The notes under the pieces were generated by a model. The model had not been told where the DNA came from. It was given only the letters and a program-made list of their open reading frames with translations, and ran no database searches. 46,261 nt of DNA from Gammaproteobacteria bacterium (GTDB lineage: Bacteria > Pseudomonadota > Gammaproteobacteria > Steroidobacterales > Steroidobacteraceae). The stretch covers positions 1-46,261 of the forward strand of contig DAHXNE010000026.1 in the NCBI GenBank assembly GCA_027366635.1, read 5' to 3'. The stretch's first letter is position 1. Every line of letters begins with the position of its first letter. Position numbers and translations under genes: made by a program. This document shows, piece after piece, positions 871 through 43,324 of the stretch.

Positions 871-2547
871 TCACGGAAAGCGGTATAACAGTCCGGCAAT
901 TTTGCCGGCAGACGTCAGTGGGGAAATGATGATGGCGAGTTGCCCGTGCGCGAAAGTGGCGATGTAGTCATTGCTGCCGTTCGGCAGAACGCCCGCGAAC
1001 CGCAGCGACCGCAAGGCGCCCAGCCGTTTCCACAGGGCGGCAGTTTTCGGCTCCTGCTCGCGGGCTGCTGCCGCAAGCTCGGGCGTCATTTCGGCATAGA
1101 GTCCGTGACCGGTGCTCTCCAGCGACTGAATCTGCCGCAGGAGGGCTGCCTCGGTTCCGGGACTGGGCCGATTTTGCTTGATTCGGTGCCGTAGCTCCGA
1201 CTCGAACGCGGCATAAGCCGTCTTCGAGCTGCGCGGCCAGGCGTGCAGATAGCCGTTCTGATGCAGAACCATGCCGGTCGCCCTGCCGGTGGGTCCGGTC
1301 ACGAAGCTGATTTGCGCCGCCACCACCGTCGCGAAAAACTTCGTGGGGCTCTCGGGGAAGACTTGAACGGGCGGCTGGCCGGTCAACTGCAAGTAATAGT
1401 GATCACCCTTGCGATAGGCGCGTGCGAAGCCTACGGGGGCGCCGGATGGGCCGATTCTGTAATAGCCCGCGAACTTCTCGAAGCGTGCGGGATTGAACGG
1501 CACCTCCTGCTGAGGCGCCTGTTGCTCGGCAAGGAGCTTGGCGCGATCGGCCGGCGCCGGGACCGTGGCGGCGGCCGCCTGGGCGTGCGCGACCGTGACC
1601 GACAACCCTCCGGAGAGAGCCATGGTACAGAGCGCGCCGGCAATGGAAGTTGCGATCAACAATTTCTTTGTGCGGCCGACGGGTATGGCGCTGCGTTCGC
1701 TCATGATTTCCTCCACGCGATGTCTCAAATCGGAACCGGAAACGCCCGCAACGCAGGCGATCTTCGACTGCGCAAAGAACCGGCAAACCTTCAGAATGCT
1801 GCCCGCATAGATTTCCGCGTCATGACCGGCGGCTACCACCGTCTCGTCGCAGGCCCGCTCACGCTCGGCGATCAGCCGGGCGCCCAACCACCAGACCGGC
1901 GGGTAAAACCAGAAAAGCGCCTCCACCACCATGTGCATCGTCATGGTCAGGTTGTCGCGCCGCCGGTAATGGCAGAGTTCGTGGGCGACAATGCCGCGCA
2001 TCTCCGTGGCCGTGAGACGCGCGGCAAGACCCACGGGAAACAGGATCACCGGATGCAAGACGCCGACCAGTCCGGGCTCCAGCGAGGCGCTCGATTCACG
2101 TACGGGAATCGGCGCTTCGAGCGGCAGCGGTGTGGATGAGGATAGCGCTCGGCGCACTCGCCGCCACCGGATGAGCCACGAAAACAGCACGATCCCGACG
2201 CCCGCGCCCCAGATGATCAGCAGTACGACCCACAAATTCTCAGGCGGCCCCACCGGTGGAGCTGCCGCCGACGCGCCGGCGGGCGTGGATCCTGGCACGA
2301 ACGGCTGGATTATCCGCTGAGCCAGTCCCGATGGGGGGCCGGAGAGGACGGCGAATGCGGGTAGCGGGGGTAACCGGCCGGTCAGGCTGGCGAGCAGCGA
2401 AAGCGGAAGGAGAAATTTCACCGACGCCGCGAGCCACACCCGGTAGCGTGCACCTGCACTGTTCGTGCGCAGGAGCAGAGTCAGAAGAGCCGCCAGGCAT
2501 AGGAAAGCCGTCGACTGCCACAGATCATTCAAGATTGCAGCGATCAT
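871..2547 (-). CDS. M56 family membrane metallopeptidase, BlaR1/MecR1-like sensor
   Basis: A 558-residue protein with several hydrophobic segments in its first 130 residues and again near residue 300, and the zinc-peptidase motif HELCHYRRRDN (HExxH type) near residue 190, as in BlaR1/MecR1. In that family, ligand sensing outside the membrane activates the peptidase, which leads to cleavage of the BlaI/MecI repressor. The C-terminal part is not the penicillin-binding sensor of true BlaR1; it contains a GYYRIG...GYLHAWP segment resembling DUF3471-type domains, so the signal is unlikely to be a beta-lactam. The gene overlaps the stop of the blaI-like gene by ATGA, indicating translational coupling. 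Confidence 0.85.
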   Translation of the reverse strand: MIAAILNDLWQSTAFLCLAALLTLLLRTNSAGARYRVWLAASVKFLLPLSLLASLTGRLPPLPAFAVLSGPPSGLAQRIIQPFVPGSTPAGASAAAPPVGPPENLWVVLLIIWGAGVGIVLFSWLIRWRRVRRALSSSTPLPLEAPIPVRESSASLEPGLVGVLHPVILFPVGLAARLTATEMRGIVAHELCHYRRRDNLTMTMHMVVEALFWFYPPVWWLGARLIAERERACDETVVAAGHDAEIYAGSILKVCRFFAQSKIACVAGVSGSDLRHRVEEIMSERSAIPVGRTKKLLIATSIAGALCTMALSGGLSVTVAHAQAAAATVPAPADRAKLLAEQQAPQQEVPFNPARFEKFAGYYRIGPSGAPVGFARAYRKGDHYYLQLTGQPPVQVFPESPTKFFATVVAAQISFVTGPTGRATGMVLHQNGYLHAWPRSSKTAYAAFESELRHRIKQNRPSPGTEAALLRQIQSLESTGHGLYAEMTPELAAAAREQEPKTAALWKRLGALRSLRFAGVLPNGSNDYIATFAHGQLAIIISPLTSAGKIAGLLYRFP

Positions 2548-2933
2548 GAATTCTCCTTCTTCTTGCTCAGTCGTCGTAGCGTCTTTTCGGCCTCCTGGAT
2601 GTCGTCAAGGGAAAGCTTGCCCGTTTCGATCAGATGGGCCATCAGCGGTTGGGCTCGGCCGCCGAACAGTCCAAGAAACTCTTCAACGAGACGGCGCAGG
2701 GCGCTCTCGCGAGTGATCAGGGGCGCGAAGATATGCGCATTGCTGATCTTCTTGACCCGTTCAACGGCTCCTTTCGCCTCGAGCCGATAAACCATCGTCT
2801 GGATCGTCGTGTAGGCGGGTCGGTCATCCGGCGGGAAGCACTGCTGGATTTCCCTGATCGACAAAGGACCGCCGGCCCAGAGCGCCTGCATGATCTGCAG
2901 CTCGAATCGACTCAGGCGGCGCGCGGCCGTCAT
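2544..2933 (-). CDS. BlaI/MecI/CopY family transcriptional repressor
   Basis: A 129-residue winged-helix protein with the BlaI/MecI signature: LSRFELQIMQALW at the N terminus, SIREIQQCFP, and the recognition-helix region AYTTIQTMVYRLEAKGAVER. The C-terminal half should dimerise, as in BlaI. It is the first gene of a two-gene operon with the M56 peptidase downstream, which should cleave it on signal. A perfect GTAGTAG/CTACTAC inverted repeat 18-34 bases before its start is the expected operator, implying autorepression of the pair. Targets outside this operon cannot be seen. Confidence 0.92.
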   Translation of the reverse strand: MTAARRLSRFELQIMQALWAGGPLSIREIQQCFPPDDRPAYTTIQTMVYRLEAKGAVERVKKISNAHIFAPLITRESALRRLVEEFLGLFGGRAQPLMAHLIETGKLSLDDIQEAEKTLRRLSKKKENS

Positions 2934-2950
2934 GCCAGTCTCCTAATATT

Positions 2951-2967
2951 GTAGTAGAGACTACTAC
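2951..2967. promoter_or_regulatory. Probable BlaI-type operator
   Basis: A perfect inverted repeat, GTAGTAG-AGA-CTACTAC, lies just upstream of the blaI-like gene. Members of the BlaI/MecI family bind dyads built from TAC/GTA-rich half-sites, so this is a good candidate for the autoregulatory operator. Flanking TT and AA extend the symmetry slightly. Confidence 0.7.
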
Positions 2968-3049
2968 CAATTCGTTTCGCTGGCAAGGCGGCTGGAGGCG
3001 CATTCGCAGCACCAGGATTGCGGCATTTTCCAGAAGGAAATCAACGGGT

Positions 3050-3262
3050 TTACCGCTTCGAGCCGCGCCGGCGCCGCGCGGGCGCCAACTCATCTTCGGG
3101 TCGCCACGGGCGGCCCTGCTTCTCCTCTATGTACCCGCGGATCAACCGCCGCACGACCTGCGAGGGGGTCGTGTCCTCGTCCGCGCACAGGCGCTCGAAG
3201 ATGGCTTTCTTGCGTGGATCGATCAGGACGGTCAGGCGGGCGGTGCGCGTTTCGAGGGCCAC
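3050..3262 (-). CDS. Small ribbon-helix-helix (CopG-like) protein
   Basis: A 70-residue protein starting at GTG (3260-3262) with AGAGGA about 10 bases upstream. The pattern TARLTVLIDPRKKAIFERLC followed by TTPSQVVRRLIRGYIEE fits a ribbon-helix-helix DNA-binding fold (one beta-strand and two helices, about residues 5-45), with a basic tail (ARRRRGSKR). Such proteins are often repressors or the antitoxin half of toxin-antitoxin pairs, but no toxin partner is adjacent. It is divergent from the hyfB operon and shares that promoter region, so it could regulate the operon; that is inference. Confidence 0.75.
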   Translation of the reverse strand: MALETRTARLTVLIDPRKKAIFERLCADEDTTPSQVVRRLIRGYIEEKQGRPWRPEDELAPARRRRGSKR

Positions 3263-3276
3263 GGTGACGAATCCTC

Positions 3277-3305
3277 TTCACATTTGAGCACCATCCTATG
3301 ATAAT
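3277..3305 (+). promoter_or_regulatory. Sigma70-like promoter of the hyf/Ehr operon
   Basis: TTCACA (3277-3282) and GATAAT (3300-3305) are separated by 17 bases; each matches five of six consensus bases. Transcription would begin near 3312, about 36 bases before the likely hyfB start. Confidence 0.5.
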
Positions 3306-3347
3306 GAAATTCACGGTTCGGTGCATCCTGTGGTTAGTCCATCCCCC

Positions 3348-5345
3348 ATGCTCCTCGTCGGCTGCGTCGCGCTCCTGCTGAGCTGGACCGCAATCGGTTT
3401 CGCCGGGCTGGTGCGCCCCCGTAGCGTGCTGCTGACCGGCCGCGTCCTGTTTCCGCTTGGAGCGCTGCTCGGGCTCGCGCTGGCGGCGCTCGCCGGGGCG
3501 AGCCTGCTCGGCGGCGGCGTCGAGCGGCTGATCCTGCCGATCGGCTTGCCCAACCTGCCGATGCATCTGCGGCTCGATCCTCTGTCGAGCATCTTTCTGC
3601 TATTGCTCGGCGCCTCATCCTTCGGCATTTCGCTGTTTGCCGGCGGCTATTTCCGGGTCGGGGAGGGGACTGCCCCGGGACTGTTATGCCTGCAGTACCA
3701 CCTGTTTCTGGCGTCGATGGGACTGGTGCTCATCGCGAATGATGCGTACAGCTTCCTCGTGGCCTGGGAGGTGATGGCGCTTTCGTCCTACTTTCTGGTC
3801 ACCACCCAGCACCGCATCCCGGAGATCCGGCGCGCCGGCCTCATCTATCTTGTAATGGCGCACGTGGGTGCGCTCTGCCTCCTGTTGTGTTTCGGTGTGC
3901 TGCAGGGCGGCAGCTGGCTCTTCACCTTTCATGCCATGCGCGCCGCGCACCTCTCACTGGGTTGGGCGACGGCGGCATTCGGGTTGGCACTGGTCGGCTT
4001 CGGCGCCAAGGCCGGGCTGGTGCCGCTGCACATTTGGCTGCCCGAGGCGCACCCGGCGGCGCCTTCCCCGGTGTCGGCGCTGATGAGCGGCGTCATGCTC
4101 AAGACCGCCGTCTACGGCATGCTGCGCGTGGGGCTCGACCTGCTGGGCCGGCCGGTCTGGTGGTGGGGCCTGGCCCCGTTGGTCCTCGGTCTTTTCACGA
4201 TCATCTACGGCGTGCTGTTCGCGGCGGTGCAGACTGACATGAAGCGCCTGCTCGCGTACTCGTCCGTCGAGAACGTTGGCATCGTGTTTACCGGCATCGG
4301 GCTGACAATCATCTTCGCCGGCTCGGGGCTCAAAGTGCTGGCGGCGCTGGCGCTGCTCGCCACCCTCTATCACTGTCTCAACCACGCATTTATGAAGAGC
4401 CTGCTGTTTCTCGGTACGGGCGCGGTGCTGCACGCCACCAAGGAGCGCAACCTCGGGCGCCTGGGCGGATTGATCCACCGCATGCCGTGGGTGGCATGGT
4501 TGACCCTCATCGGAGTCCTCGCGATCGCCGGACTGCCGCCGCTGAACGGCTTCGTGTCGGAGTGGCTGATGCTGCAGGCGTTTTTGTTTACCGGGCGCCT
4601 GCCGCACGCGTTCGTAAATCTCTTGATTCCCATGGGCATGGCGCTGGTCGTGCTCGGGACCGCGCTCGCCGGCTATGTCATGGTGAAGTTCTATGGAGTG
4701 ATCTTTCTCGGCCAGCCGCGTGAAGCTTCTCTGGCCCACGCACACGACTGTGGCTGGCTCGAGCGGATCGGACTGTCATGGCTGGCGCTTGGCTGCGTGG
4801 CGCTCGGTTTGTTCCCGCTGCAGGTGATTCGGGCGCTTGGGTCGGTCACGCACCAACTGGTCGGCGCGGTCGTTCCACAGGCGTCCTCCGCCTGGTGGTT
4901 GCTCGCGCCCGTGCCCGGCCGGTCGGTCTCCTATGGACCGCTGGTGTTTCTGATGGCTACCCTTGCCGTGGTGCTCATGACCGTCCTCGCTGTGCGCCTG
5001 GCCTACCACCAGCGCGTGCGGCGGGGACCGGCCTGGGATTGTGGCGCCGGCGGTCTCACGGCACGCATGCAGGACACCGCCGAGGGCTTCGGCCAGCCGA
5101 TCCGCAATCTGTTCCAGCCGTTCTTCGAGATCGAGCGCGAGTTGCCCGAGCCGGCCGATCTCGCGCCCCGCTATCGTATCGTAGTTCGGGAGCGGATCTG
5201 GCGGCTGCTGTACGCGCCGCTGGTGGGCGCCGTCGAGGGGCTGGCCAACGCCGCCGCGCGTATACAGCGGGGGCGCATCTCTGTGTACCTGCTGTACAGC
5301 TTCGTAACCCTGCTGGTGCTGCTGGCGGTGGCGTTGCTCAGATGA
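3348..5345 (+). CDS. hyfB: HyfB-like antiporter subunit of hydrogenase-related complex
   Basis: A 665-residue polytopic membrane protein of the NuoL/MrpA-like family, close in length to E. coli HyfB. Diagnostic is the segment GAKAGLVPLHIWLPEAHPAA with PSPVSALMSGVMLKTAVYG, which contains the conserved lysine of the proton channel; DMKRLLAYSSVENVG and a later lysine/histidine region follow. It should form one proton-translocating module of the membrane arm. The first ATG after the promoter is 3348; a GTG at 3321 in frame is possible. Its stop overlaps the hyfC start (ATGA). It begins the six-gene complex encoded to 10451. Confidence 0.88.
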   Translation: MLLVGCVALLLSWTAIGFAGLVRPRSVLLTGRVLFPLGALLGLALAALAGASLLGGGVERLILPIGLPNLPMHLRLDPLSSIFLLLLGASSFGISLFAGGYFRVGEGTAPGLLCLQYHLFLASMGLVLIANDAYSFLVAWEVMALSSYFLVTTQHRIPEIRRAGLIYLVMAHVGALCLLLCFGVLQGGSWLFTFHAMRAAHLSLGWATAAFGLALVGFGAKAGLVPLHIWLPEAHPAAPSPVSALMSGVMLKTAVYGMLRVGLDLLGRPVWWWGLAPLVLGLFTIIYGVLFAAVQTDMKRLLAYSSVENVGIVFTGIGLTIIFAGSGLKVLAALALLATLYHCLNHAFMKSLLFLGTGAVLHATKERNLGRLGGLIHRMPWVAWLTLIGVLAIAGLPPLNGFVSEWLMLQAFLFTGRLPHAFVNLLIPMGMALVVLGTALAGYVMVKFYGVIFLGQPREASLAHAHDCGWLERIGLSWLALGCVALGLFPLQVIRALGSVTHQLVGAVVPQASSAWWLLAPVPGRSVSYGPLVFLMATLAVVLMTVLAVRLAYHQRVRRGPAWDCGAGGLTARMQDTAEGFGQPIRNLFQPFFEIERELPEPADLAPRYRIVVRERIWRLLYAPLVGAVEGLANAAARIQRGRISVYLLYSFVTLLVLLAVALLR

Positions 5346-6292
5346 GCGCAATCGACTGGATCACCCAGGTGCTCGAGGTCGTGGCCGCGGTTGCGGCCGC
5401 CCCGGCCCTTCTCGGCTGGCTGAACCAATGTCGTGCCTGGCTGCAGAACCGGCGCGCACCGAGCCTGTGGCTGCCTTACCGGAACCTGCACAAGCTGTTC
5501 CGCAAGGAGGCCGTGATCGCCGAGAACGCCTCACCACTGTTCCGGATCGCCCCGTATGTGGTCTTCGGCACGATGGGGCTGGCCGCGGGCATCATTCCGT
5601 CGATGGGAACGCAACTGCCACTGGTCGGTTCAGCAGATGCGATCGCGCTGGTCGGGCTGTTCGCGGCGGCGCGCATGTTCATGACGTTGGCGGCCATGGA
5701 TGTCGGCACCGCGTTCGGCACGATGGGCGCGCGCCGCGAGATGATGGTCGGCTTTCTCGCCGAGCCGGCGCTGCTGATGGTGATCTTCGTCGCCTCGCAG
5801 ATCTCCTCGAGCACGGCGCTGCCGGTGATCACCGAGCACCTCGCCTCCGGACGCCTGGGACTGTCGCCGGGGCTGGCCTTCAGCGCGGTGGCATTCATCC
5901 TGGTTCTGCTGGCGGAAAACGCGCGCATTCCAGTCGACAATCCCGCTACCCACCTCGAACTCACCATGATCCACGAGGCGATGGTGCTGGAATACTCGGC
6001 CCGCCACTTGGCGTTGATGGAGTGGGCCGCACAACTGAAGCTGTTCAACTACATCTGCATCGGCTTCGCCCTGTTCTTCCCCTGGGGGGTGGCGACGGCG
6101 CACATCGGGCCGGTGGGTCTCGTCGTGGCGATCCCCGCGCTCGCGATCAAGCTCGCGGTCGCAGGCGCGGGATTGGCCGTGATCGAGACACTGTCGGCCA
6201 AGCTGCGGGTCATGCGCATACCGGAGTTTCTCGGCACGGCGTTCCTGTTGGCCGTGCTCGGACTGCTGGTGCACGTACTACTGGGAACCTGA
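5342..6292 (+). CDS. hyfC: HyfC/NuoH-like membrane subunit
   Basis: A 316-residue membrane protein of the NuoH/HycD/HyfC family. The best marker is ENARIPVDNPATHLELTMIHEAM near residues 190-215, the conserved loop that faces the quinone- or hydrogenase-proximal cavity in complex I and group 4 hydrogenases. It anchors the soluble small and large subunits to the membrane arm. The ATG at 5342 overlaps the hyfB stop, giving a typical family N terminus. Five bases separate it from hyfE. Confidence 0.9.
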   Translation: MSAIDWITQVLEVVAAVAAAPALLGWLNQCRAWLQNRRAPSLWLPYRNLHKLFRKEAVIAENASPLFRIAPYVVFGTMGLAAGIIPSMGTQLPLVGSADAIALVGLFAAARMFMTLAAMDVGTAFGTMGARREMMVGFLAEPALLMVIFVASQISSSTALPVITEHLASGRLGLSPGLAFSAVAFILVLLAENARIPVDNPATHLELTMIHEAMVLEYSARHLALMEWAAQLKLFNYICIGFALFFPWGVATAHIGPVGLVVAIPALAIKLAVAGAGLAVIETLSAKLRVMRIPEFLGTAFLLAVLGLLVHVLLGT

Positions 6293-6297
6293 GCGCA

Positions 6298-6966
6298 ATG
6301 GCACACCTGCCCCTGGGACAACAGCTACTCGATTCCTGCGCGGCATTGTTGCTGCTGCTGTCTTTCGCCATGTTGTCGCAGCGGCGTGTGGTGACTCTGG
6401 TCAATCTTTATGCGGTGCAGGGCGCGGTGCTCGCCGCAGCGACTCTGCTGCTCGCGTGGCGGACCGGCGAAACCCATCTATACATCTCCGCCGCGCTGAC
6501 TGTCGGACTCAAGGTGGTGCTGCTGCCCTGGCTGCTGTACAGACTCATCCGCAAGCTCGAGGTGTATCGGGACACCGAGCCGCTGTTCAATGTCTCCGGC
6601 ACCATGCTGGTGGGCCTGGTGATCGTGGTATTCGCCTTTTCTCTGGCGCAGCCGATCACGCGGCTCGCCAGCACGGCGACCCGCAGCTCCATCGGGATCG
6701 CCATCGCCGTGGTGCTGCTCTCGTTCCTGATGATGATCACGCGGCGCAAGGCCATATCGCAGGTGATGGGGTTCTTGTCGATGGAGAACGGTGTGCTGTT
6801 CGGCGCCATGAGCGCCAGTTACGGCATGCCCATGGTCGTGGAGCTGGGAATCGCCCTCGACGTGCTGGTGGCCGTGCTGGTGTTGGGAGTGTTCTTCTTC
6901 CAGATCCGCGAGCGGTTCGACAGCCTCGATCTGCACCACCTGGAAAGTCTGAAGGAGCGCGAATAA
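6298..6966 (+). CDS. hyfE: HyfE-like (NuoK-containing) membrane subunit
   Basis: A 222-residue protein with about six to seven hydrophobic segments, matching HyfE in length (about 216 in E. coli). The C-terminal half resembles NuoK, with MGFLSMENGVLFGAM carrying the glutamate in a membrane helix that is conserved in NuoK for proton transfer. Its ATG at 6298 follows the hyfC stop by five bases and its stop precedes the hyfF start by one, so translation is tightly coupled in the operon. Confidence 0.88.
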   Translation: MAHLPLGQQLLDSCAALLLLLSFAMLSQRRVVTLVNLYAVQGAVLAAATLLLAWRTGETHLYISAALTVGLKVVLLPWLLYRLIRKLEVYRDTEPLFNVSGTMLVGLVIVVFAFSLAQPITRLASTATRSSIGIAIAVVLLSFLMMITRRKAISQVMGFLSMENGVLFGAMSASYGMPMVVELGIALDVLVAVLVLGVFFFQIRERFDSLDLHHLESLKERE

Positions 6967-6967
6967 C

Positions 6968-8422
6968 GTGGAGCTGCTGCTGCTGTTGATCCTGCCGATC
7001 GGAGGTGCCGCATGGCTCGGAATCACCGGCGCGCATCGGCGCGCTCCCGAGGTCAACGCGGTGGTGAGTCTCGGGACTTTTCTTGCCGCCTGCGCCCTTG
7101 CGGTGCGCGTGATCCGCCACGGCGATCTGCTGCTTGGGGAGGAGCAGTTCTTCATCGACCCGTTCAATGTCTTTCTGGTGACGTTGACGGCGTTCGTCGG
7201 GCTGACTACGGCGCTATTCTCGCGTCCCTACATGCGCATCGAGGTTGATCATGGCCGGCTGACGCCGCGACGATTGCGCCTCTATCACAGCATGTATCAG
7301 CTGTTCATGTTCACCATGCTGCTAGCGCTGACGACCAACAACATGGGGTTGATGTGGGTCGCCATGGAGGGAGCGACGCTCTCGACCGTGCTGCTGGTGA
7401 CCCTGTACCGCACGCCTGGAAGCCTCGAGGCGGGCTGGAAGTACTTCATTCTTTGCGGCGTCGGCATCGCTCAGGCACTGTTCGGCACCATCTTGCTGTA
7501 TGTGGCGGCTGAAAAGGTGCTCGGTTCCCAGGGCGTGACGGCGCTGCTGTGGACGCACCTCGACGCCGTCAAATCGCAGCTCGAGCCCACGGTACTGGCG
7601 CTCTCCTTTGTGTTCCTGCTGGTCGGTTATGGCACCAAAGTGGGGCTGGTGCCGCTGCACAGCTGGCTGCCCGATGCGCACGCCGAGGGGCCCACGCCGA
7701 TCTCGGCCGTCCTGTCCGGCTTGCTGCTCAATGTGGCCCTCTACGCGGTGGTGCGCAGCAAAGTGCTGGTCGAGGGCTCAGTGCACTCGCAACTCCCGTC
7801 ACGGTTGCTCATGGGGTTTGGACTGGTGTCGGTGGTGGTGGCGGCACTGCTGTTGTGGCGGCAGCGTGACATCAAGCGCCTGTTCGCCTATTCGTCGATC
7901 GAGCACATGGGAATTGCGACGTTCGCCTTCGGCATGGGCGGTCCCATTGCGAATTTCGCCGCTCTGCTGCATATGACGGTGCACTCGCTCACCAAGTCCT
8001 CCATCTTCTTCACCGCGGGACATGCCGCGCAGAAGGCGGGCACTCAGGAGATCGATCGCATCCGTGGTCTGATCACGCTTTCGCCGACCGTAGGCTGGGG
8101 GCTGATGCTCGGCTCGCTCGCCATTCTCGGAGTGCCGCCGTTCGGAGTGTTCACCAGCGAGTTCCTGATCCTGACCACCGCCATGCGCACCCAGCCCTGG
8201 GCCACACCGATCCTGCTGGCGGCCCTCGCGGTGGCGTTCGCGGCCATATTCTCTAAAGTGCAGCCCATGGTATTCGGCGAAACCACCGGCCGCCGCCTGC
8301 CGCATGCTCCTGCGCTGCTGCCGGTGTTTGCGCACCTGGCGATCGTGCTGCTGCTCGGGCTGTACATCCCGCCGTACCTCGCGGACTGGTACCGTGCCGC
8401 GGCGCATCTGATCGGAGGCTAG
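6968..8422 (+). CDS. hyfF: HyfF-like antiporter subunit
   Basis: A 484-residue NuoN/NuoM-type membrane protein. GYGTKVGLVPLHSWLPDAHAEGPTPISAVLSG carries the channel lysine, and DIKRLFAYSSIEHMGI is the family's second landmark. It begins at GTG 6968 with AAGGAG at 6952-6957. This is the second antiporter-like module after HyfB; no HyfD homologue is present, so the complex has two such modules plus the NuoK-like HyfE. A 35-base gap, with GGGAGG before the next start, separates it from the large subunit. Confidence 0.88.
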   Translation: MELLLLLILPIGGAAWLGITGAHRRAPEVNAVVSLGTFLAACALAVRVIRHGDLLLGEEQFFIDPFNVFLVTLTAFVGLTTALFSRPYMRIEVDHGRLTPRRLRLYHSMYQLFMFTMLLALTTNNMGLMWVAMEGATLSTVLLVTLYRTPGSLEAGWKYFILCGVGIAQALFGTILLYVAAEKVLGSQGVTALLWTHLDAVKSQLEPTVLALSFVFLLVGYGTKVGLVPLHSWLPDAHAEGPTPISAVLSGLLLNVALYAVVRSKVLVEGSVHSQLPSRLLMGFGLVSVVVAALLLWRQRDIKRLFAYSSIEHMGIATFAFGMGGPIANFAALLHMTVHSLTKSSIFFTAGHAAQKAGTQEIDRIRGLITLSPTVGWGLMLGSLAILGVPPFGVFTSEFLILTTAMRTQPWATPILLAALAVAFAAIFSKVQPMVFGETTGRRLPHAPALLPVFAHLAIVLLLGLYIPPYLADWYRAAAHLIGG

Positions 8423-8457
8423 AACGTGCAGGACGGCAGAGTAGGGAGGATCGCTCG

Positions 8458-9945
8458 ATGCCCCTGAGGCGCTGGTGGGACCGCGCGCAGCCCGTCACGG
8501 GCGCGCCTCACGTCCGGGGTCTGGGCGTTGGGACCGAGGACTGGCTGCAGGTGGCGCGGGACGTGGCGGCCGCCGGCGGTGTGCTGCACGCTCTGTGGAT
8601 GAGTTGCGCGGCGATGGGCGATCACGCCGTGCAAGAGCGCATCGTCTATGGCGCGTATCTGACGGACACGGGTGTATTGATCGTCGAGCTCACGCTGCCC
8701 GCCGCGGCCACTCAGACCTATCCGGGGCTGGAAGGGATTTTCCCCGCTGCCGCGCGGATGCAGCGCGCCGCGCATGATCTTTCCGGCATCCGCTCGAGCG
8801 ATCCGGACGCGCGGCCCTGGCTGAATCACGATCGGCCCTACGAGTTCGTACGGGTGGACGGAGAAGGCGTGCATGAAATCGCCGTGGGTCCGGTGCACGC
8901 CGGCACTATCGAGCCGGGCCATTTCCGCTTCTCCGTGGTCGGTGAGAAGGTGCTCAAGCTCGAGGAGCGTCTGGGCTACACGCACAAGGGTCTCGAGCAG
9001 CGCTTCACGGCGTTGCCGATTCTGCAGGGCCATCGGCTGGCGGCGCGCGTGTCGGGCGATTCGGCGGTGGCGTATTCCTGGGCCTACTGCCAGGCGTTGG
9101 AAGGCATGAGCGGCCGGGCGATACCGCCGCGGGCGGCTTGGCTTCGCGCCGTGTGCCTGGAGCTTGAGCGGCTTGCGAATCATCTCGGCGACCTCGGGGC
9201 GCTCGGAAATGACGTCGGATTCGCATTCGGACTGACGCAGTTCTCCCGCCTCAAGGAAGATCTGCTACGCGCCATGGCCGCGGTTTTCGGCGAGCGCTAT
9301 CTATTCGACATCATCGTCCCGGGAGGTGTGGCGATTGATGTGTCGGCAGCGGCGGCCGGTGCGTTGGCCGATGTGGTGCGCGCGGTGTGCACCGAGACGG
9401 AGGAACTGCGCGATATCTACGACGAGCATGAGGGCGTGCGCGATCGCTTCACGGGCGCGGGACGTCTGGAACCGGAGCGGGCCGCGCGACTCGGCGTGAT
9501 CGGGCTGGTGGGGCGCGCCAGCGGACAAGCGCGCGACGTACGTGTGGATCTGCCCGATGCCCCGTACACGGAGCTACCCGTTGCAATGGTCGTAGAACAC
9601 GACGGGGACGTCGCGTCGCGGGTGGCAGTGCGTTTCGGGGAGGTGCGCGAATCGGGGCGGTTGTTGACGAGCTTGCTGTCGGCATTGCCGGACGGCATGC
9701 ATGCGGTGGAGGTCGGTGTTCCCGCGGACGGCGCGTTCGGCGTCGGTCTCATTGAGGGGTGGCGCGGGCCGGTGCTCGTGGCGCTGCAGGCGGGACCTTC
9801 GGGCTCGATCCGCCGGTGCCACCCGCACGATCCGTCATGGCAGAACTGGCCGGCGCTGGAATACGCCATCATGGGCAACATCGTGCCGGACTTTCCGCTC
9901 ATCAACAAGTCGTTCAATCTGTCCTACAGCGGCGTGGATCTCTAG
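8458..9945 (+). CDS. Hydrogenase-like large subunit without Ni ligands (EhrL-type)
   Basis: A 495-residue fusion of a NuoC-like domain (about 1-115) and a NuoD/HycE-like domain. GPVHAGTIEPGHFRF (144-158) and RLGYTHKGLE (171-180) place it with group 4 hydrogenase large subunits. The N-terminal nickel motif, CGxC in HycE, reads SGDS at residues 199-202, and the C-terminal DPCYSC motif reads NLSYSG at 487-492. All four nickel-binding cysteines are therefore absent, while the surrounding fold residues are kept. This matches 'energy-converting hydrogenase related' (Ehr) subunits, which cannot hold a NiFe site and may bind another substrate such as a quinone. The start at 8458 has GGGAGG eight bases upstream. 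Confidence 0.9.
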   Translation: MPLRRWWDRAQPVTGAPHVRGLGVGTEDWLQVARDVAAAGGVLHALWMSCAAMGDHAVQERIVYGAYLTDTGVLIVELTLPAAATQTYPGLEGIFPAAARMQRAAHDLSGIRSSDPDARPWLNHDRPYEFVRVDGEGVHEIAVGPVHAGTIEPGHFRFSVVGEKVLKLEERLGYTHKGLEQRFTALPILQGHRLAARVSGDSAVAYSWAYCQALEGMSGRAIPPRAAWLRAVCLELERLANHLGDLGALGNDVGFAFGLTQFSRLKEDLLRAMAAVFGERYLFDIIVPGGVAIDVSAAAAGALADVVRAVCTETEELRDIYDEHEGVRDRFTGAGRLEPERAARLGVIGLVGRASGQARDVRVDLPDAPYTELPVAMVVEHDGDVASRVAVRFGEVRESGRLLTSLLSALPDGMHAVEVGVPADGAFGVGLIEGWRGPVLVALQAGPSGSIRRCHPHDPSWQNWPALEYAIMGNIVPDFPLINKSFNLSYSGVDL

Positions 9946-9947
9946 CC

Positions 9948-10451
9948 ATGTTGAAGACGTTGCGCAAGATCGCGTCGATCGGATTGATATCGGAGCCGGC
10001 GCCGGCGCCCGACGAGCTGCTGCGCGTGCGCCGCGCGGCGGACGCCACGATCGCCGCGGTGCTCGGCCGGGCGCTGTGCATCCGGCACGTGGATGCCGGC
10101 TCTTGCAATGGCTGCGAGCTCGAGATTCAGGCGCTCGGCAACCCATACTACAATCTGGAAGGACACAACATCCGGTTCGTCGCCAGCCCCCGGCATGCGG
10201 ACCTGCTGCTGGTCACCGGACCGGTGGTAAAAAACATGGAGCTGGCGTTGCAGAGAACGTATGCGGCGACACCGGATCCGAAGCGGGTCGTGGCGGTGGG
10301 GGACTGCGGCTGCACCGGCGGAATCCTCGGGGAGTGTCCGGCCTCGCTGGGGCGGGTTGCAAATGTGATCCCGGTGGACGTGGCGGTGCCAGGGTGTCCG
10401 CCGAGCCCGGTACGCATCCTGCAGGCAATCCTGACCGCGATCCAGGCCTGA
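9948..10451 (+). CDS. Hydrogenase-like small subunit (NuoB/HyfI-like, EhrS-type)
   Basis: A 167-residue NuoB/HyfI-family protein. Cysteines C53 and C56 (CNGCE), C120 (GDC) and C150 (PGCPPSP) are placed as the four ligands of the proximal [4Fe-4S] cluster (N2 in complex I). Cluster binding thus appears intact although the partner large subunit has lost its metal site. Two bases separate it from the large-subunit stop. No ferredoxin-type HyfH/NuoI gene follows, so the route by which electrons reach this cluster is unknown. Confidence 0.9.
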   Translation: MLKTLRKIASIGLISEPAPAPDELLRVRRAADATIAAVLGRALCIRHVDAGSCNGCELEIQALGNPYYNLEGHNIRFVASPRHADLLLVTGPVVKNMELALQRTYAATPDPKRVVAVGDCGCTGGILGECPASLGRVANVIPVDVAVPGCPPSPVRILQAILTAIQA

Positions 10452-10589: not shown

Positions 10590-11549
10590 TCAGGCCGGCG
10601 GGAGCCGGCACAGGCTGCCGTGCAGCTCGCTGAAATAGTAGCTGCGAAAGCGCAGCGTCGCCTTGTCTGTGCGCACCGAGCGCTCGGCGCTCGCGGCCGG
10701 GATCTGCGGCGGGTCGGAGGATTCGACGATGTTGCGATCCTCGTCCGCGATGCGACGGTTGGTCCGGTTGAAGAACCAGTCGAAAATAGCGGCGCGCGCG
10801 AAGCTGCGCGCCGCCATCAGGAGCAGCCGAGTGCGGTGCTCATCGAGCGGCACACACGCCACCGCCAGCGTCAGATGACGTCCACGCATGGGAATGTGCA
10901 GGTTCATCTGGTTGGGCCGGCGGAAGTCGAGCATGCCGGGCCGGACCGCGCCGCGCAAGGCGGTGCGTACGCGCCATCCCCACTCGTGTTCTTCGATCAG
11001 CGTGTCCATACGTTCCGCGCTGAATGGCACGAGGTCCTTGCCGATGCTGCCGCGATGCACGAACGCCAGATGCGGCCAGTCGAGCATGTTCTCCATGGCG
11101 CGGGTCCAATGCGTGTGCCAGATCGTCTCGATTCCGGTCAGCCGCGTTTTCGGGTCGAGCAGCGATTCGTGCACCGTTGGCGCGTCGGGCGCCTCGGGGC
11201 CGAGGGAGGTGCGGATCCAAATCTGTCCGGAGAGTTCGCGGGCCGGTATCGCCAGGGCGTGCAGCGCAGCACGTTTCGCGTCGGGATTCCATGGAACCTG
11301 CACGCACTGTCCATTGCGGTCGAATCGCCAGCCGTGGTACGGACATTGCAGGCAGCCGTCGCGAACCGATCCAAGTGACAACGCGGCGCCGCGATGCGGG
11401 CAGCGGTCGAGTACGGCGGCCGGTGTGCCATGCGTGTCGCGGAACACCGCGAGCGCGGTGCCCGCGACACGGATCCGCATCACATCGTTGGCGCGCAGTT
11501 GCGCGGTCAGCGCAACCGGAGTCCATACGTTCGCGAAGTCGCGGAACAT
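10590..11549 (-). CDS. Rieske non-heme iron oxygenase
   Basis: A 319-residue oxygenase alpha subunit. The Rieske [2Fe-2S] ligands are C50/H52 (CPHRG) and C69/H72 (CPYHGW). The mononuclear iron site is visible as ENMLDWPHLAFVH, giving D157, H160 and H165. The overall layout is that of single-component-type (PaO/VanA-like) enzymes that hydroxylate or demethylate a small molecule using an outside reductase. The substrate cannot be told. It lies six bases after the CarH-like regulator stop on the same strand, so the two are probably cotranscribed and light- or B12-responsive. Confidence 0.88.
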   Translation of the reverse strand: MFRDFANVWTPVALTAQLRANDVMRIRVAGTALAVFRDTHGTPAAVLDRCPHRGAALSLGSVRDGCLQCPYHGWRFDRNGQCVQVPWNPDAKRAALHALAIPARELSGQIWIRTSLGPEAPDAPTVHESLLDPKTRLTGIETIWHTHWTRAMENMLDWPHLAFVHRGSIGKDLVPFSAERMDTLIEEHEWGWRVRTALRGAVRPGMLDFRRPNQMNLHIPMRGRHLTLAVACVPLDEHRTRLLLMAARSFARAAIFDWFFNRTNRRIADEDRNIVESSDPPQIPAASAERSVRTDKATLRFRSYYFSELHGSLCRLPPA

Positions 11550-21712: not shown

Positions 21713-24139
21713 ATGGGTAAGGTCCGTGAGGCGATCTGGGTGGCCGGCCGCCTGATCCGCAGAGTAGGTGTTCTGGGGGCCGTGGCGATGCTTGCGGCAT
21801 GCGCGGGCAGCACCGGCGCATCGGGCCCCGCCGGACCGGCGGGTGCGACCGGCCCGGCCGGCCCGTCCGGACCGAGCAGCACGGTGAGCGCGCTCGACGT
21901 GAGCACCGCCACGAAGATCACCGCGACCATCACCAACGTCACGATTCCCTCCTCGGGACAACCGATCGTCGATTTCACGCTCGTGGATCAGAACGGCGAG
22001 CCGCTCTCGGGCCTGCCCGCCGCCGATGTCAGTTTCGCCATTGCCCGGCTCGTGCCCGCTGGCGTGCAACTGAATGCCTACCCGAGGCTGCCGGCGCCGG
22101 TTCCGCTCCTGCGGCCCCAATGGCAGTCCTACCTCTACAACATGGTCGAGCCCGCGCCCGCATCCGCCGGAACCGCCACCGATCCGGTCGTAGGTACCAC
22201 GGCTGAGCCGCAGGCAACGACCGAAGCCGGCACCGCCGGAACGCTCGTCGATAACGGCAATGGCAGCTACCAGTACGAGTTCGCGAAGGACATCGAAACC
22301 GATCCGGTCGTGACCTACGATCCGAGCTACGTTCATCGCGTCGGTCTCGAGATCCGCAATCTCGCTCCCGCCAACAGCCCGGTGTACACATTCATCCCGG
22401 CGACCGGAGCGACCACCGGGTTCGATGCCAACGATGCCGTGTCCAACGCGCAATGCCTCGCCTGTCACCAGCAACTGGCCTTTCACGGCGGTGCGCGCAC
22501 CAACGTGCAGTATTGCGTCATCTGCCACAATCCGAGCTCGATAGATCCGTCGAGCGGCAATACGCTCGATTTCTCGGTGATGATTCACAAGATCCACATG
22601 GGCGTCGATCTGCCGAGCGTCGTGGCGGGCACGAATTACTATATCTTCGGTTACCAGAACCAGATCTTCGATTTCAGTAACGTCGCCTATCCGCAGACCG
22701 ATCTCAGCGACAACAGCAGCGCAGTATCGGGTTCCGGTACCCGTTTCTGCACGACCTGCCACGAGCCTGACGATCCCAGTGCGCCGCAATCCGGCGATTA
22801 CCAGACGGTTATTGTTGCTGCCACCTGCGCCTCGTGTCACGACAACATCGATTTCGCGACGGGACAAGGCCATGACGGGATCATAGCAACCGACGCCCAG
22901 TGTTCGACCTGTCACGGACCGACCTCTACGCTCGACAATGGCACGCTGCAGGTGGCGGCCGCCCATGCTCTGGGGGTGGATGCCGCGGCCGGAAAGTTCG
23001 CCTTCAAGATCGTGAATGTCGCGAACACCGCGCCGGGCGATACGCCGTCCGTGACCCTGGAGGTCGTCAACCCGGATGCCAACGACGCGCCGTACACTTT
23101 GCCGGGACCGTTCGTGGGCGGGTCGCTGTCGGTCGATATGGCGTGGCCGACCGAGGGCTTCCAAAATATCGGCAGCGACAGCGCCACTGCCACCAGCGGC
23201 ACGCCCAATCAGCCGGTGTCTATCAACTTTCTCGGTAGCAACGTGACCGACAACGGCAATGGCACGTTCACGGCACTCTCACCGGTGCCCATTCCGACTA
23301 CGGCCTCCGGCTCGGGGCAAATGGCGGTGGAGGGGCGGGTGCCGGTGGCGCTGCCGAATGTATCGGGCAGCGGCACGACCACGGTGAACCTCGGTATCGA
23401 CGGTGTCACCGATGACTTTCCGATCACCGACGCGAGCGCGGTGGCGCCCGCGCAAATCGTCTCGATCGCCAAATGCGATGCCTGTCATCACGACTTGAGT
23501 GAGCACGGCCAGTTGCGCACCAACAAAATAGAGCTGTGCGCGGCCTGCCACAACGCCGATGCCACTGACATCGGGGAGCACACGGCCGCCTCGGGCGCCT
23601 GCGGGCCGGTGGGCAGCGCGGGCGCGAATCCCGTCCAGTCGATCGACTTCGCGATCTTCATCCATGAGATCCATGCCTCGGGCGCGGTCGATGCCGCTGG
23701 CAATCTGCGCTACCCGAATGGGTTGACCATTTGTAGTTTCGGCGCGAGGCCCCAGACGTTCAATGTCGCCTACCCGGGCAATCTGGAGGACTGCAATGCC
23801 TGTCACGTGAACAACTCGTACTACCCGGTGAGCGACGCCCAGGCGCTGGGTCCGACGGTTGGTCTCGATCCGACCGCCCGCACGACCCTGACCGATGACG
23901 TCGCGGTCTCGCCGAACGCCGCGATCTGCGCGAGCTGCCATACGAGCCAGACGGCTGAGGAGCACATGATCCAGAATGGCGGTGACTTCACTGCGACCAA
24001 GAGCGCCACGGGCGCCTTGGTGCCGTCGAGCGTCGAGACCTGCGCGTTGTGTCACGGGCCCGGTGGAATAGCGGACGTGGCGGTGATGCACAACCTGGCG
24101 GATTTCCCCAATAGTACCGGTAGCACCGCCAGCAATTAA
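21713..24139 (+). CDS. Decaheme c-type cytochrome lipoprotein, OmcA/MtrC family
   Basis: An 808-residue surface cytochrome. The ATG at 21713, preceded by GGGAG, gives a lipoprotein signal peptide with lipobox LAAC, followed by a collagen-like GPAGPAG stretch. Ten CxxCH sites are present: CLACH, CVICH, CTTCH, CASCH and CSTCH at residues 248-401, then CDACH, CAACH, CNACH, CASCH and CALCH at 588-781. A beta-rich segment lies before each pentaheme block. This is the four-domain plan of MtrC/OmcA, which pass electrons to minerals or other extracellular acceptors. The decaheme partner and outer-membrane barrel follow directly. Confidence 0.93.
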   Translation: MGKVREAIWVAGRLIRRVGVLGAVAMLAACAGSTGASGPAGPAGATGPAGPSGPSSTVSALDVSTATKITATITNVTIPSSGQPIVDFTLVDQNGEPLSGLPAADVSFAIARLVPAGVQLNAYPRLPAPVPLLRPQWQSYLYNMVEPAPASAGTATDPVVGTTAEPQATTEAGTAGTLVDNGNGSYQYEFAKDIETDPVVTYDPSYVHRVGLEIRNLAPANSPVYTFIPATGATTGFDANDAVSNAQCLACHQQLAFHGGARTNVQYCVICHNPSSIDPSSGNTLDFSVMIHKIHMGVDLPSVVAGTNYYIFGYQNQIFDFSNVAYPQTDLSDNSSAVSGSGTRFCTTCHEPDDPSAPQSGDYQTVIVAATCASCHDNIDFATGQGHDGIIATDAQCSTCHGPTSTLDNGTLQVAAAHALGVDAAAGKFAFKIVNVANTAPGDTPSVTLEVVNPDANDAPYTLPGPFVGGSLSVDMAWPTEGFQNIGSDSATATSGTPNQPVSINFLGSNVTDNGNGTFTALSPVPIPTTASGSGQMAVEGRVPVALPNVSGSGTTTVNLGIDGVTDDFPITDASAVAPAQIVSIAKCDACHHDLSEHGQLRTNKIELCAACHNADATDIGEHTAASGACGPVGSAGANPVQSIDFAIFIHEIHASGAVDAAGNLRYPNGLTICSFGARPQTFNVAYPGNLEDCNACHVNNSYYPVSDAQALGPTVGLDPTARTTLTDDVAVSPNAAICASCHTSQTAEEHMIQNGGDFTATKSATGALVPSSVETCALCHGPGGIADVAVMHNLADFPNSTGSTASN

Positions 24140-24157
24140 GGCGCGGGCAAACGCCAC

Positions 24158-25150
24158 ATGAATGCTGCACGTCCACGAATTCAACGGTTCTGGTCAGCCG
24201 CGGCGGTGGCACTGGCCGGTATGGTGATGTTTCTGGCAGCGGGCGCGGCATGGGCCGCGCCGCCCGCCGGTCCGCCCGTGCCTGCCGTGCCGAGTAACTC
24301 GCCCACGGCGCTTGGCTACAGCGCCCAAGGCGCCGATACCTGCCTGATGTGCCATCGGACCAACGCGCGGGTGATGGCCATCTTTCGCAGCCCGCACGCG
24401 CAGCCGAACAACCCGCGCAGCCCATTCGGGCCGGGCGGGTTGCAGTGCGAGGCCTGTCATGGGCCGGGCGAGGCCCACGTAAAGGCGTTCGGGATGAAGC
24501 CGGCGGGCATCGTGGTGTTCGGTCCGCATTCGCCGACGCCGGTGGCCAAGCAGAACTCGATGTGCCTGGCTTGCCACAAGAACGTGGCGCGCGTATGGCT
24601 GACCGGGGCGCACGCGGCCAATAACGTCAGTTGCGCCGACTGTCACCAGATTCATGCCGGCACGGATCCGGTCATGATGCAGGCCACCGAGGCAAGCGTC
24701 TGCGCCAAGTGTCATCAGGCGGTCGTGGCGCAGTTTCGCATGCCCTATCATCATCCAGTGCTCGAGGGCACCATGACCTGCTCGTCCTGCCATGATCCGC
24801 ACGGCTCGTTCGGACCGGACATGCTCATCAAGAGCACTGTGAACGCGACATGCACCAGTTGTCATGCCGCGATGCGCGGTCCGTTCCTATGGGAACATCA
24901 GCCGGTCACCGACGACTGTCTGGACTGCCATACGCCGCACGGTTCGGCCGTGGCGTCGTTGCTGAAGGAGCCGACGCCCATTCTGTGTCAGCAGTGTCAT
25001 GATCTTGCCGGCCATCCGTCCGTGCCGTACGGTCCCCAGGGCCTGCCCGCAGGCATGCCCAACCCTTATCTGCTGATCGGTGGATGCGTGAACTGCCACT
25101 CCCGCATCCACGGCTCGAACAGTCCGTCGGGGCAGTATCTGATGCGCTAG
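24158..25150 (+). CDS. Decaheme c-type cytochrome, DmsE/MtrA/MtrD family
   Basis: A 330-residue periplasmic cytochrome with a signal peptide (MVMFLAAGAAWA then APPAGPP). Ten CxxCH sites are spaced over the mature protein: CLMCH, CEACH, CLACH, CADCH, CAKCH, CSSCH, CTSCH, CLDCH, CQQCH and CVNCH. Size and heme number match MtrA/DmsE, which insert into an MtrB barrel as a heme wire across the outer membrane. It lies 18 bases after the MtrC-like gene and eight bases before the barrel gene. Confidence 0.94.
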   Translation: MNAARPRIQRFWSAAAVALAGMVMFLAAGAAWAAPPAGPPVPAVPSNSPTALGYSAQGADTCLMCHRTNARVMAIFRSPHAQPNNPRSPFGPGGLQCEACHGPGEAHVKAFGMKPAGIVVFGPHSPTPVAKQNSMCLACHKNVARVWLTGAHAANNVSCADCHQIHAGTDPVMMQATEASVCAKCHQAVVAQFRMPYHHPVLEGTMTCSSCHDPHGSFGPDMLIKSTVNATCTSCHAAMRGPFLWEHQPVTDDCLDCHTPHGSAVASLLKEPTPILCQQCHDLAGHPSVPYGPQGLPAGMPNPYLLIGGCVNCHSRIHGSNSPSGQYLMR

Positions 25151-25157
25151 AGGAACC

Positions 25158-30952: not shown

Positions 30953-31222
30953 ATGTGTCTGGCAATACCCGGCAGAATTCTCAGCGTTTGCGGTGACGAC
31001 CCCGTGGTGCGCACTGCGCGCGTCGATTTCGGTGGGGTCGTCAAGGAAATCAGCCTGGCGTACACCCCCGAGGCGCAGCCGGGACAGTACGTGCTCGCGC
31101 ATGTGGGCTTCGCCATGGCGTTGATCGATGAAGACCAGGCCGCCGAACTGCTCGCGACACTGCGCGGTCTGGCCGCCGAGGCGGGCATTTCCCTGGACGC
31201 GGTGCCCGGACCCGGCGCATGA
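30953..31222 (+). CDS. hypC: Hydrogenase maturation chaperone HypC
   Basis: An 89-residue HypC/HybG-family protein. MCLAIPG at the N terminus carries the essential cysteine (C2), followed by the OB-fold pattern TARVDFGGVVKEISLAY and YVLAHVGFAM. HypC carries the Fe(CN)2CO unit with HypD and delivers it to the hydrogenase large subunit. It opens the hyp operon, with AAGGGG before its ATG, and overlaps hypD by four bases. Confidence 0.95.
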   Translation: MCLAIPGRILSVCGDDPVVRTARVDFGGVVKEISLAYTPEAQPGQYVLAHVGFAMALIDEDQAAELLATLRGLAAEAGISLDAVPGPGA

Positions 31223-33425: not shown

Positions 33426-33433
33426 GCCGTTCG

Positions 33434-41680: not shown

Positions 41681-41839
41681 CAGCACTCCCACGGCGCGCT
41701 CATGCCCGTGCGCCGCGTGGGGGCTGACCGCGGACGCGCACGCCGATGCGCTTATGCGCGAATTCTCGTCATTGCGCCGAGGGGGCTCTATACGGGGAAG
41801 TGCCTATCCGCAGCAGAAGGTCCGCCGGCGCCCGAACTC

Positions 41840-43135: not shown

Positions 43136-43324
43136 TTGTCTATCGGGAGCCTGGATCGGTCGCGCTGAACGGGTGCTGAACCTGCGCTGATCCCGGCCGA
43201 GCCGCTCCTGGGAGCAGCAACGCAAGACCGCAGGACTCGTTGACGGGCCGGGAGTGCGCGGCAAGGTGCGGGACGGCCGCCCGCTTGATACGATGCGCCG
43301 CCCTCATCGCATTCCAAAATCCCC

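Follow-up and report, generated by a model that had tools for sequence, protein, structure and literature searches.

A nickel-free Ehr-type relative of hydrogenase 4 in Pseudomonadota, with a possible link to inorganic carbon supply

Introduction

Ehr-type complexes have been described from Sulfobacillus (PMC4378227) and comammox Nitrospira (PMC10284858), and the accessible parts of both papers state that their function is unknown. As described there, they combine a large subunit resembling that of group 4 [NiFe] hydrogenases, without its CxxC motifs, with complex-I-like partners, and in Sulfobacillus six syntenic genes were found near each large subunit (PMC4378227). Here we describe a six-gene cassette that shares these traits, hyfB-C-E-F-G-I, on a contig of a gammaproteobacterium of the Steroidobacteraceae (GenBank assembly GCA_027366635.1, contig DAHXNE010000026.1, positions 1 to 46,261; this whole stretch of 46,261 nucleotides is referred to as the window). 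The name EhrA is given here to the six-gene Ehr complex of the window type. Its signature NKSFN-x-SYSG and its context of SulP and carbonic anhydrase genes go unmentioned in the accessible parts of PMC4378227 and PMC10284858.

Other described systems share parts of this architecture. Hydrogenase 4 (Hyf) and hydrogenase 3 (HycE) of E. coli have the fold and the subunits B, C, E, F, G and I in common with EhrA, but the EhrA cassette encodes no HyfA, HyfD, HyfH or formate dehydrogenase, the nickel ligands are missing, and the large subunit does not continue past the place of the second cysteine pair as HycE does. The membrane-bound sulphane reductase MBS of Pyrococcus is, like EhrA, derived from a hydrogenase and devoid of quinone ligands; it differs, according to its description, in keeping two of the four nickel cysteines, a three-cysteine proximal cluster and all Mrp homologues (PMC7684303). 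Core architecture is also shared with complex I (NuoB/NuoCD) and with the cyanobacterial NDH-1MS, which is described as coupling ferredoxin oxidation to CO2 hydration (PMC13144422). In contrast to these two, EhrA does not conserve the quinone-ligand residues, has a hydrogenase-type cluster spacing and lacks an NADH module in its cassette. The DAB/DAC systems (DabA plus DabB) couple an antiporter-type subunit to CO2 hydration, a function that we tentatively propose for EhrA, whose cassette has no DabA and instead encodes a large subunit and an Fe-S subunit.

The explanation that we put forward, with less than even confidence, is that the operon codes for an Ehr complex of six subunits, a complex-I-like, nickel-free ion pump driven by redox chemistry, which helps to supply inorganic carbon in many of its carriers. 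Its parts differ in strength: the window complex is almost certainly not a hydrogenase, it is probably an ion-translocating redox complex, and inorganic carbon as the main role of the family is a possibility that we regard as somewhat doubtful.

Results and Discussion

Loss of the nickel site in the large subunit

The fifth gene of the cassette is an intact open reading frame from ATG to stop that encodes a HyfG-like large subunit of 495 residues (Table 1). An earlier note on this DNA had claimed that SGDS (199-202) and NLSYSG (487-492) stand here in place of the CGxC and DPCYSC of HycE-type subunits, with conserved fold motifs on either side. Both claims hold to the residue. In an alignment with HycE and HyfG of E. 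coli MG1655, S199, S202, S489 and G492 occupy the places of the nickel ligands, none of the four cysteines is present and the CxxC...CxxC pattern of group 4 [NiFe] hydrogenases is absent from the window protein; the flanking motifs GPVHAG..EPGHF, R197 and SYSG-x-D are retained. The AlphaFold model of the subunit (mean pLDDT 90, pTM 0.92; pLDDT under 50 at residues 147-153, and weak at about 121-180 and at the C-terminus) matches formate hydrogenlyase HycE best among PDB entries (7z0s_E; 28% identity, TM 0.89 relative to the query length), and NuoCD chains of complex I come next.

Two sets of loci were compared. The first consists of the window and 80 loci, which are the best 80 of 578 confirmed from a scan of genome contigs; the second adds 40 further loci, one of which (L181) repeats another (L122). 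They yielded 123 large-subunit sequences (83 from the first set including the window, 40 from the second), of which 121 remained after removal of a four-cysteine paralogue (L098b) and the duplicate, and 120 of these, the window included, have all four ligand columns. A fold alignment (A4) of 66 rows held 65 large subunits of the first set, among them that of the window. No cysteine occurs at the ligand columns in 109 of the 120 sequences, a single one in 11 and more than one in none, and we therefore reject sequencing error or chance as the source of the loss. Counted with the duplicate, column 199 is occupied by S (106), C (9), A (6) or V (1), column 202 by S (96), T (19), A (3), C (2) or M (2), column 489 by S (103), A (14) or N (4), and column 492 by G (119) or A (2).

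D201 is present in all 121 large subunits, N483, K484, S485 and Y490 in all 120 that have these columns, and N487 in 119 of 120. In the sampled clade, the alignments show, the four nickel ligands have given way to these conserved residues, all of them polar or charged (D201, N483, K484, S485, N487, Y490). The former metal pocket has thus been rebuilt, and it looks to be under selection rather than decaying. E152, invariant in the 120 sequences having that column, aligns with E21 of MbhL, which the accessible part of PMC7684303 describes as a proton-transfer glutamate absent from MBS. The positions of the quinone ligands H38 and Y87 of Nqo4 are taken by I151 and G200, a pattern unlike that of complex I; I151 is found in all 82 first-set subunits having the column and in all 40 of the second set, and G200 in 119 of 122.

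The extension that follows the second cysteine pair of HycE is missing in 83 of 83 first-set and 40 of 40 second-set large subunits. HycE is processed at its C-terminus, and the missing extension was considered as proof that no nickel is inserted; this argument was dropped, as the four-cysteine paralogue L098b also stops directly after CTDR. L098b is a group 4 large subunit encoded upstream of an EhrA cassette (L098, 1977-3590). It ends in NKSFELCYSCTDR and has no C-terminal extension, and an HyfI-like gene with a longer N-terminus lies between it and the cassette (the stretch noted in L098 is 1977-4428). In another locus, on a Burkholderiales contig (L092, 11986-18798), a second cassette whose large subunit carries SGDC stands in tandem behind the EhrA cassette.

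The six-gene cassette and its iron-sulphur site

The cassette is intact in the window (3321-10451), and a full set of six called genes is present in 56 of the 81 first-set loci, counting the window, and in 33 of the 40 second-set loci; many of the incomplete cassettes are cut by contig ends and a few are without a called subunit. A single cluster thus combines antiporter-like and NuoH-like membrane subunits and a NuoB-like Fe-S subunit, which is the gene content of an Ehr complex, and NCBIfam models label the window membrane subunits as 'hydrogenase 4'. HyfA, HyfD, HyfH and formate dehydrogenase are all absent from the window cassette, which therefore does not have the make-up of a formate hydrogenlyase; this search covered the cassette and not formate dehydrogenases genome-wide.

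Table 1. Features of the EhrA cassette in the window.
Feature	Positions	Strand	Basis
hyfB-like antiporter-type membrane subunit, GTG start (ATG at 3348 possible)	3321..5345	+	NCBIfam NF005086 848.6 bits, over cut-off; Pfam Proton_antipo_M
hyfC-like membrane anchor, NuoH family	5342..6292	+	Pfam NADHdh 95.7 bits
hyfE-like membrane subunit	6298..6966	+	NCBIfam NF008556 106.4 bits, below cut-off 136; without Pfam match
hyfF-like antiporter-type membrane subunit	6968..8422	+	NCBIfam NF005045 851.4 bits, over cut-off
hyfG-like large subunit, fusion of 30 kDa and 49 kDa domains, nickel ligands missing	8458..9945	+	open reading frame, alignment, AlphaFold
codon of E152, aligned to MbhL proton-transfer glutamate E21	8911..8913	+	alignment
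codons of S199-G200-D201-S202, place of first nickel cysteine pair	9052..9063	+	aligned to HycE CGIC
codons of N487-L-S-Y-S-G492, place of second nickel cysteine pair, inside NKSFN-x-SYSG	9916..9933	+	aligned to HycE DPCYSC
hyfI-like subunit, one [4Fe-4S] site, CNGC spacing (TTG start at 9942 possible)	9948..10451	+	Pfam Oxidored_q6 102.2 bits

In the membrane arm, at least 96% of the loci compared retain E141, K221, K299, K350 and E405 of HyfB (numbered from the ATG at 3348; 61 loci, window included), E134, K224, K303, K343 and E398 of HyfF (75 loci) and the segment DNPxTHLELTMxHEAxxLEYS of HyfC (63 loci), and hyfE has the same position in the cassette in 67 loci. Conserved charged residues of antiporter-type subunits are residues of the proton path. 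In HyfI, C53, C56 and C120 (167-residue form) are retained in 75 of 75 first-set loci, window included, and C150 in all 74 having the column; all four cluster cysteines are also retained in 36 of 36 second-set loci, one of which is the repeat of L122. Their spacing is the C-x2-C of hydrogenases and not the adjacent pair of complex I, a distinction drawn in the accessible part of PMC7684303. An MBS-type cluster was rejected for HyfI on ligand count, which is four and not three. Sequence comparison accordingly shows a complete membrane arm of hydrogenase-4 type with conserved charged residues, joined to a single predicted [4Fe-4S] site of hydrogenase type.

A double ferredoxin pattern (CxxCxxCxxxC, twice) was found in 2 of 920 open reading frames of the flanks, both in L173, by a pattern that can miss variants; in a check, E. 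coli HyfH scored two and a ferredoxin-HyfI fusion from the window genome only one. Six loci (L166, L168, L170, L171, L173 and L178) carry a regulator of 180-190 residues directly upstream of hyfB, at a distance of -3 in four of them and of 102 and 191 in the other two; the regulator of L173 has HTH and cupin domains and the other five are similar on visual inspection. In other loci a small HTH-like protein, about 90 residues long, takes this place upstream of hyfB.

Relationships and distribution

In a maximum-likelihood tree both cysteine-less clades stand apart from HycE/HyfG, MbhL and NuoD (support 99.4/100). A second tree, in which the four ligand columns were excluded, six sequences omitted and four added, L098b among them, places the two cysteine-less clades together with L098b apart from the same groups (100/100). 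The catalytic types in the trees were E. coli-type HycE/HyfG and MbhL only, with published Ehr sequences outside the sample. The alignment and tree proposed as a check in the earlier note thus did not place the protein inside catalytic group 4 as sampled here by HycE/HyfG and MbhL (100/100), with the nuance that the four-cysteine L098b groups with the Ehr clades. L098b shares NKSF with EhrA, and its position among the Ehr clades is poorly supported (17.1/59). By this sequence placement the Ehr grouping is not wholly cysteine-less, since L098b falls within it, and the nickel ligands may have been lost once or twice. The L098b type was not found among 299 genomes at E <= 1e-90; the 13 matches are EhrA copies by position and 36-41% identical. 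The note's assignment to Ehr complexes, a kind already known whose reaction is not established in the literature, fits both the cassette and the tree; the accessible parts of PMC4378227 and PMC10284858 agree with it.

Large-subunit matches (E <= 1e-40) were obtained in 65 of 299 sampled genomes of the same phylum. By identity, 58 of these belong to the EhrA clade, including the window's own genome and one fragment (G203), and seven are HycE-like (31-34%), three of which (L141-L143) were confirmed by RVCGIC and DPCYSC. HycE as query found close HycE (72-97%) in 3 of 200 genomes, and six other matches sit at EhrA positions. Within the window's family the EhrA clade is present in 18 of 60 genomes, by our own reading of 19 genomes with matches. 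Culturable carriers include Rhodanobacter lindaniclasticus (L077), Thiomonas sp. FB-6 (L096) and Azospirillum isscasi (L134).

The window genome holds further relatives. A second cysteine-less complex (contig C63; L008, 510-7950) has a large subunit 33% identical to that of the window, with SGVG and ASFGLTVAG; a ferredoxin domain is fused to its HyfI, and it lies about 8 kb from [NiFe] hydrogenase genes. The genome also encodes NuoD, and a [NiFe] hydrogenase with RICGVC and DPCMAC whose best models are of the group 1 type. The window itself carries a maturation set at 31004-38307, consisting of hypC, hypD, an AIRS-domain gene taken for hypE, a HypX-like formyltransferase/enoyl-CoA-hydratase fusion, hypB and hypF, which presumably serves the [NiFe] hydrogenase on contig C63.

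Gene neighbourhood and inorganic carbon

Flanking genes were our own codon-usage calls at 81 loci of the first set (window included) and the 40 of the second, and the Pfam scan covered 72 of 104 upstream and 70 of 129 downstream neighbours. SulP/STAS was the commonest family upstream (10 of the 72 scanned proteins) and was not among the 25 commonest families of the 70 downstream proteins. Of 88 loci, 11 (L074, L088, L097, L108, L109, L115, L125, L129, L131, L136 and L187) have a SulP-type anion transporter gene no more than two genes upstream of hyfB, in L109 as a STAS-bearing fragment. Counted by open reading frame there are 12 SulP among 169 upstream frames versus 4 among 751 other flank frames (Fisher p 9.7e-7, from loci that are not independent; p 1.0e-6 without the duplicate locus). 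The SulP proteins form three groups and, since identity between the groups is 20-41%, were recruited on more than one occasion. The SulP gene of L125 runs into the start of hyfB (start-minus-end distance -3), and in L187 the distance is 34.

A gamma-carbonic-anhydrase-like gene stands directly upstream of hyfB in L097 (distance 23) and L162 (distance 11), and L074 has a piece of one at its contig end. The proteins have three histidines (H72, H89, H94), in a spacing that we take to match that of Cam, and their best NCBIfam matches are CcmM and carbonic anhydrase. Downstream of the cassette, L074 carries a divergent CsoSCA-like gene (Pfam 24.9 bits, cut-off 21.5) and a CbbR-like regulator, and in L099 RuBisCO and CbbQ adjoin the cassette. 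At the genome level, RuBisCO at scores like those of forms I/II, which is our own assignment of form, occurs in 35 of 58 EhrA genomes versus 51 of 241 others (p 1.7e-8, confounded by kinship). Outside one family (f33) the counts are 12 of 27 EhrA carriers versus 18 of at most 208 others, and p lies between 1e-5 and 3.5e-4 if f33 is assumed to number 64 to 130 genomes.

The context of SulP, carbonic anhydrase and RuBisCO around the EhrA cassette is new here. The one literature link between Ehr or Hyf-like complexes and inorganic carbon that our search found, with preprints and most subscription papers outside its coverage, is a remark in PMC10880623; that paper reports that in Wood-Ljungdahl organisms carbonic anhydrase genes adjoin those for formate dehydrogenase or 'formate hydrogenlyase', an arrangement that its authors found hard to understand.

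Several observations weigh against a carbon role. SulP within two genes upstream is absent in 77 of the 88 loci, and one of the four 'other' SulP matches is really TauE plus Usp, which shows that the phmmer SulP list is not clean. None of six SulP proteins scanned reached the BicA cut-off, three passed the one set for the 'sulfate permease' subfamily model, and sulphate is among the ions that SulP proteins transport. The gamma-carbonic-anhydrase-like proteins score below the NCBIfam cut-offs for CcmM, carbonic anhydrase and gamma carbonic anhydrase, and in L074 both the CsoSCA-like protein (37 of 241 bits for TIGR02701) and the CbbR-like regulator (252 of 450) fall below those of their models. 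A Sulf_transp gene (PF04143) is the next gene downstream in L161 and the third downstream in L162, and L162, also a carbonic-anhydrase locus, has a TauE gene near the cassette. On account of these sulphur-transport genes we place slightly less trust in our own explanation, and slightly more in a sulphur function, than we otherwise would have. Kinship confounds the RuBisCO association, with RuBisCO in 23 of 31 EhrA genomes of f33 and in 56 f33 genomes overall. DabA is rarer in EhrA genomes (3 of 58 versus 52 of 241 others). It is also rarer in RuBisCO genomes (4 of 86 versus 51 of 213), and substitution of EhrA for DabA was rejected, as RuBisCO versus DabA gives the same pattern. Finally, the cassette encodes no electron donor.

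The window's own organism adds to these points. No carbon gene was seen among the window's neighbours and no carbonic-anhydrase gene beside its cassette; in the genome (86.6% complete) neither phosphoribulokinase nor SulP was found, DabA is present, and RuBisCO-like matches of 244-249 bits were read as being in the form IV range. A carbon role for this organism is suggested only by analogy with other carriers. Two near-identical RuBisCO-like fragments stand at the starts of contigs C109 and C62 (L190, L191), each followed by a near-identical open frame, which points to a repeat or an assembly split.

Alternative explanations

The strongest alternative is a general energy-conserving ferredoxin:quinone (or quinol:ferredoxin) oxidoreductase that pumps ions without any tie to inorganic carbon, its SulP and carbonic-anhydrase-like neighbours being incidental. 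The complex-I-like architecture, the retained cluster and charged membrane residues, the 23 of 58 carriers (window genome among them) without form I/II-like RuBisCO and the window's carbon-free neighbourhood all suit it. It is opposed by the occupation of the quinone-ligand positions by I151 and G200, by a cassette without electron input and by an upstream SulP enrichment that is unlikely to have arisen by chance. On balance we take it for a serious possibility, if a somewhat improbable one.

A sulphur-compound reductase resembling Pyrococcus MBS, with the proximal cluster as catalyst, is improbable. MBS has likewise lost nickel and quinone ligands, according to the accessible part of PMC7684303, and the possible sulphate transport by SulP, with three of six proteins over the 'sulfate permease' cut-off, together with the Sulf_transp and TauE genes of L161 and L162, would agree with such a function. 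Three features separate the two complexes: the HyfI of EhrA keeps four ligands with C-x2-C spacing, while in MBS one iron lacks a cysteine ligand; EhrA retains the proton-transfer glutamate, which is absent from MBS; and the replacement residues of EhrA are polar or charged, in contrast to an MBS pocket described as hydrophobic.

Still less likely is a non-redox ion antiporter or assembly in which the large subunit is a structural remnant, as the loss of the NiFe site and a cassette without an electron-input subunit might suggest, since the Fe-S ligands are invariant in 75 first-set loci (window included) and 36 second-set loci and the replacement residues are nearly invariant, unlike those of a decaying site. 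That the gene was mis-sequenced, or that its product is a functional hydrogenase with unusual ligands, can be dismissed on sequence in spite of the nickel maturation genes and the true [NiFe] hydrogenase of this genome, given that none of 120 sequences has more than one ligand cysteine and that EhrA forms a separate clade.

Other features of the window

A Rieske/VanA-type gene (10590-11549, minus strand) lies downstream of the cassette on the opposite strand and was for that reason set aside as a possible partner. Three consecutive genes at 21713-27302 encode a putative outer-membrane electron conduit, made up of an OmcA/MtrC-like multihaem cytochrome, a multihaem cytochrome taken for MtrA-like and an MtrB/PioB porin (TIGR03509 over cut-off). 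Low-complexity repeats at 41788-43264 (FHPQQQFRPQ-type, minus strand) yield long open frames on both strands.

Proposed function and significance

A nickel-free, redox-driven, complex-I-like ion pump is the best-supported reading of EhrA, and a role in inorganic carbon gives the best hint of what it is for. The earlier note held that the complex must oxidise or reduce something else; the retained cluster ligands of HyfI speak for such a reaction, which we infer without the 'must'. In the mechanism that we propose, a soluble low-potential donor such as ferredoxin would dock on HyfI, and a substrate bound in what was once the NiFe pocket would receive electrons by way of the single HyfI cluster. 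This transfer would drive ions through HyfC and the arm formed by HyfB and HyfF. More tentatively, the pump may energise inorganic-carbon supply in many carriers, for example by removing the proton from CO2 hydration or by powering HCO3- uptake, in the manner of the cyanobacterial NDH-1MS and the DAB complexes. Because we saw no clade-specific, carbonic-anhydrase-like metal site in the residues that the large subunit conserves, the CO2-hydrating step is placed in a partner, which in some operons could be the gamma-carbonic-anhydrase-like protein.

The furthest-reaching form of this proposal, which we consider unlikely as it stands, is that EhrA is a third energy-driven inorganic-carbon pump beside NDH-1MS and DAB: a former hydrogenase with a rebuilt NiFe pocket (D201, K484, N487, Y490) whose proton pumping would drive CO2 hydration or bicarbonate uptake together with SulP and gamma-carbonic anhydrases.

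The EhrA clade is common, with 58 of the 299 sampled genomes of the phylum against seven at HycE-like identity (three of them confirmed HycE), and its gene context offers a concrete and cheap test of Ehr function. The four-cysteine L098b is a starting point for understanding how the NiFe site was lost. If the link to carbon is true, it might explain the juxtaposition of genes reported in the accessible part of PMC10880623, provided that those genes are Ehr. If EhrA is indeed a third pump, many autotrophic and mixotrophic Pseudomonadota would harbour such a pump, labelled 'hydrogenase 4'.

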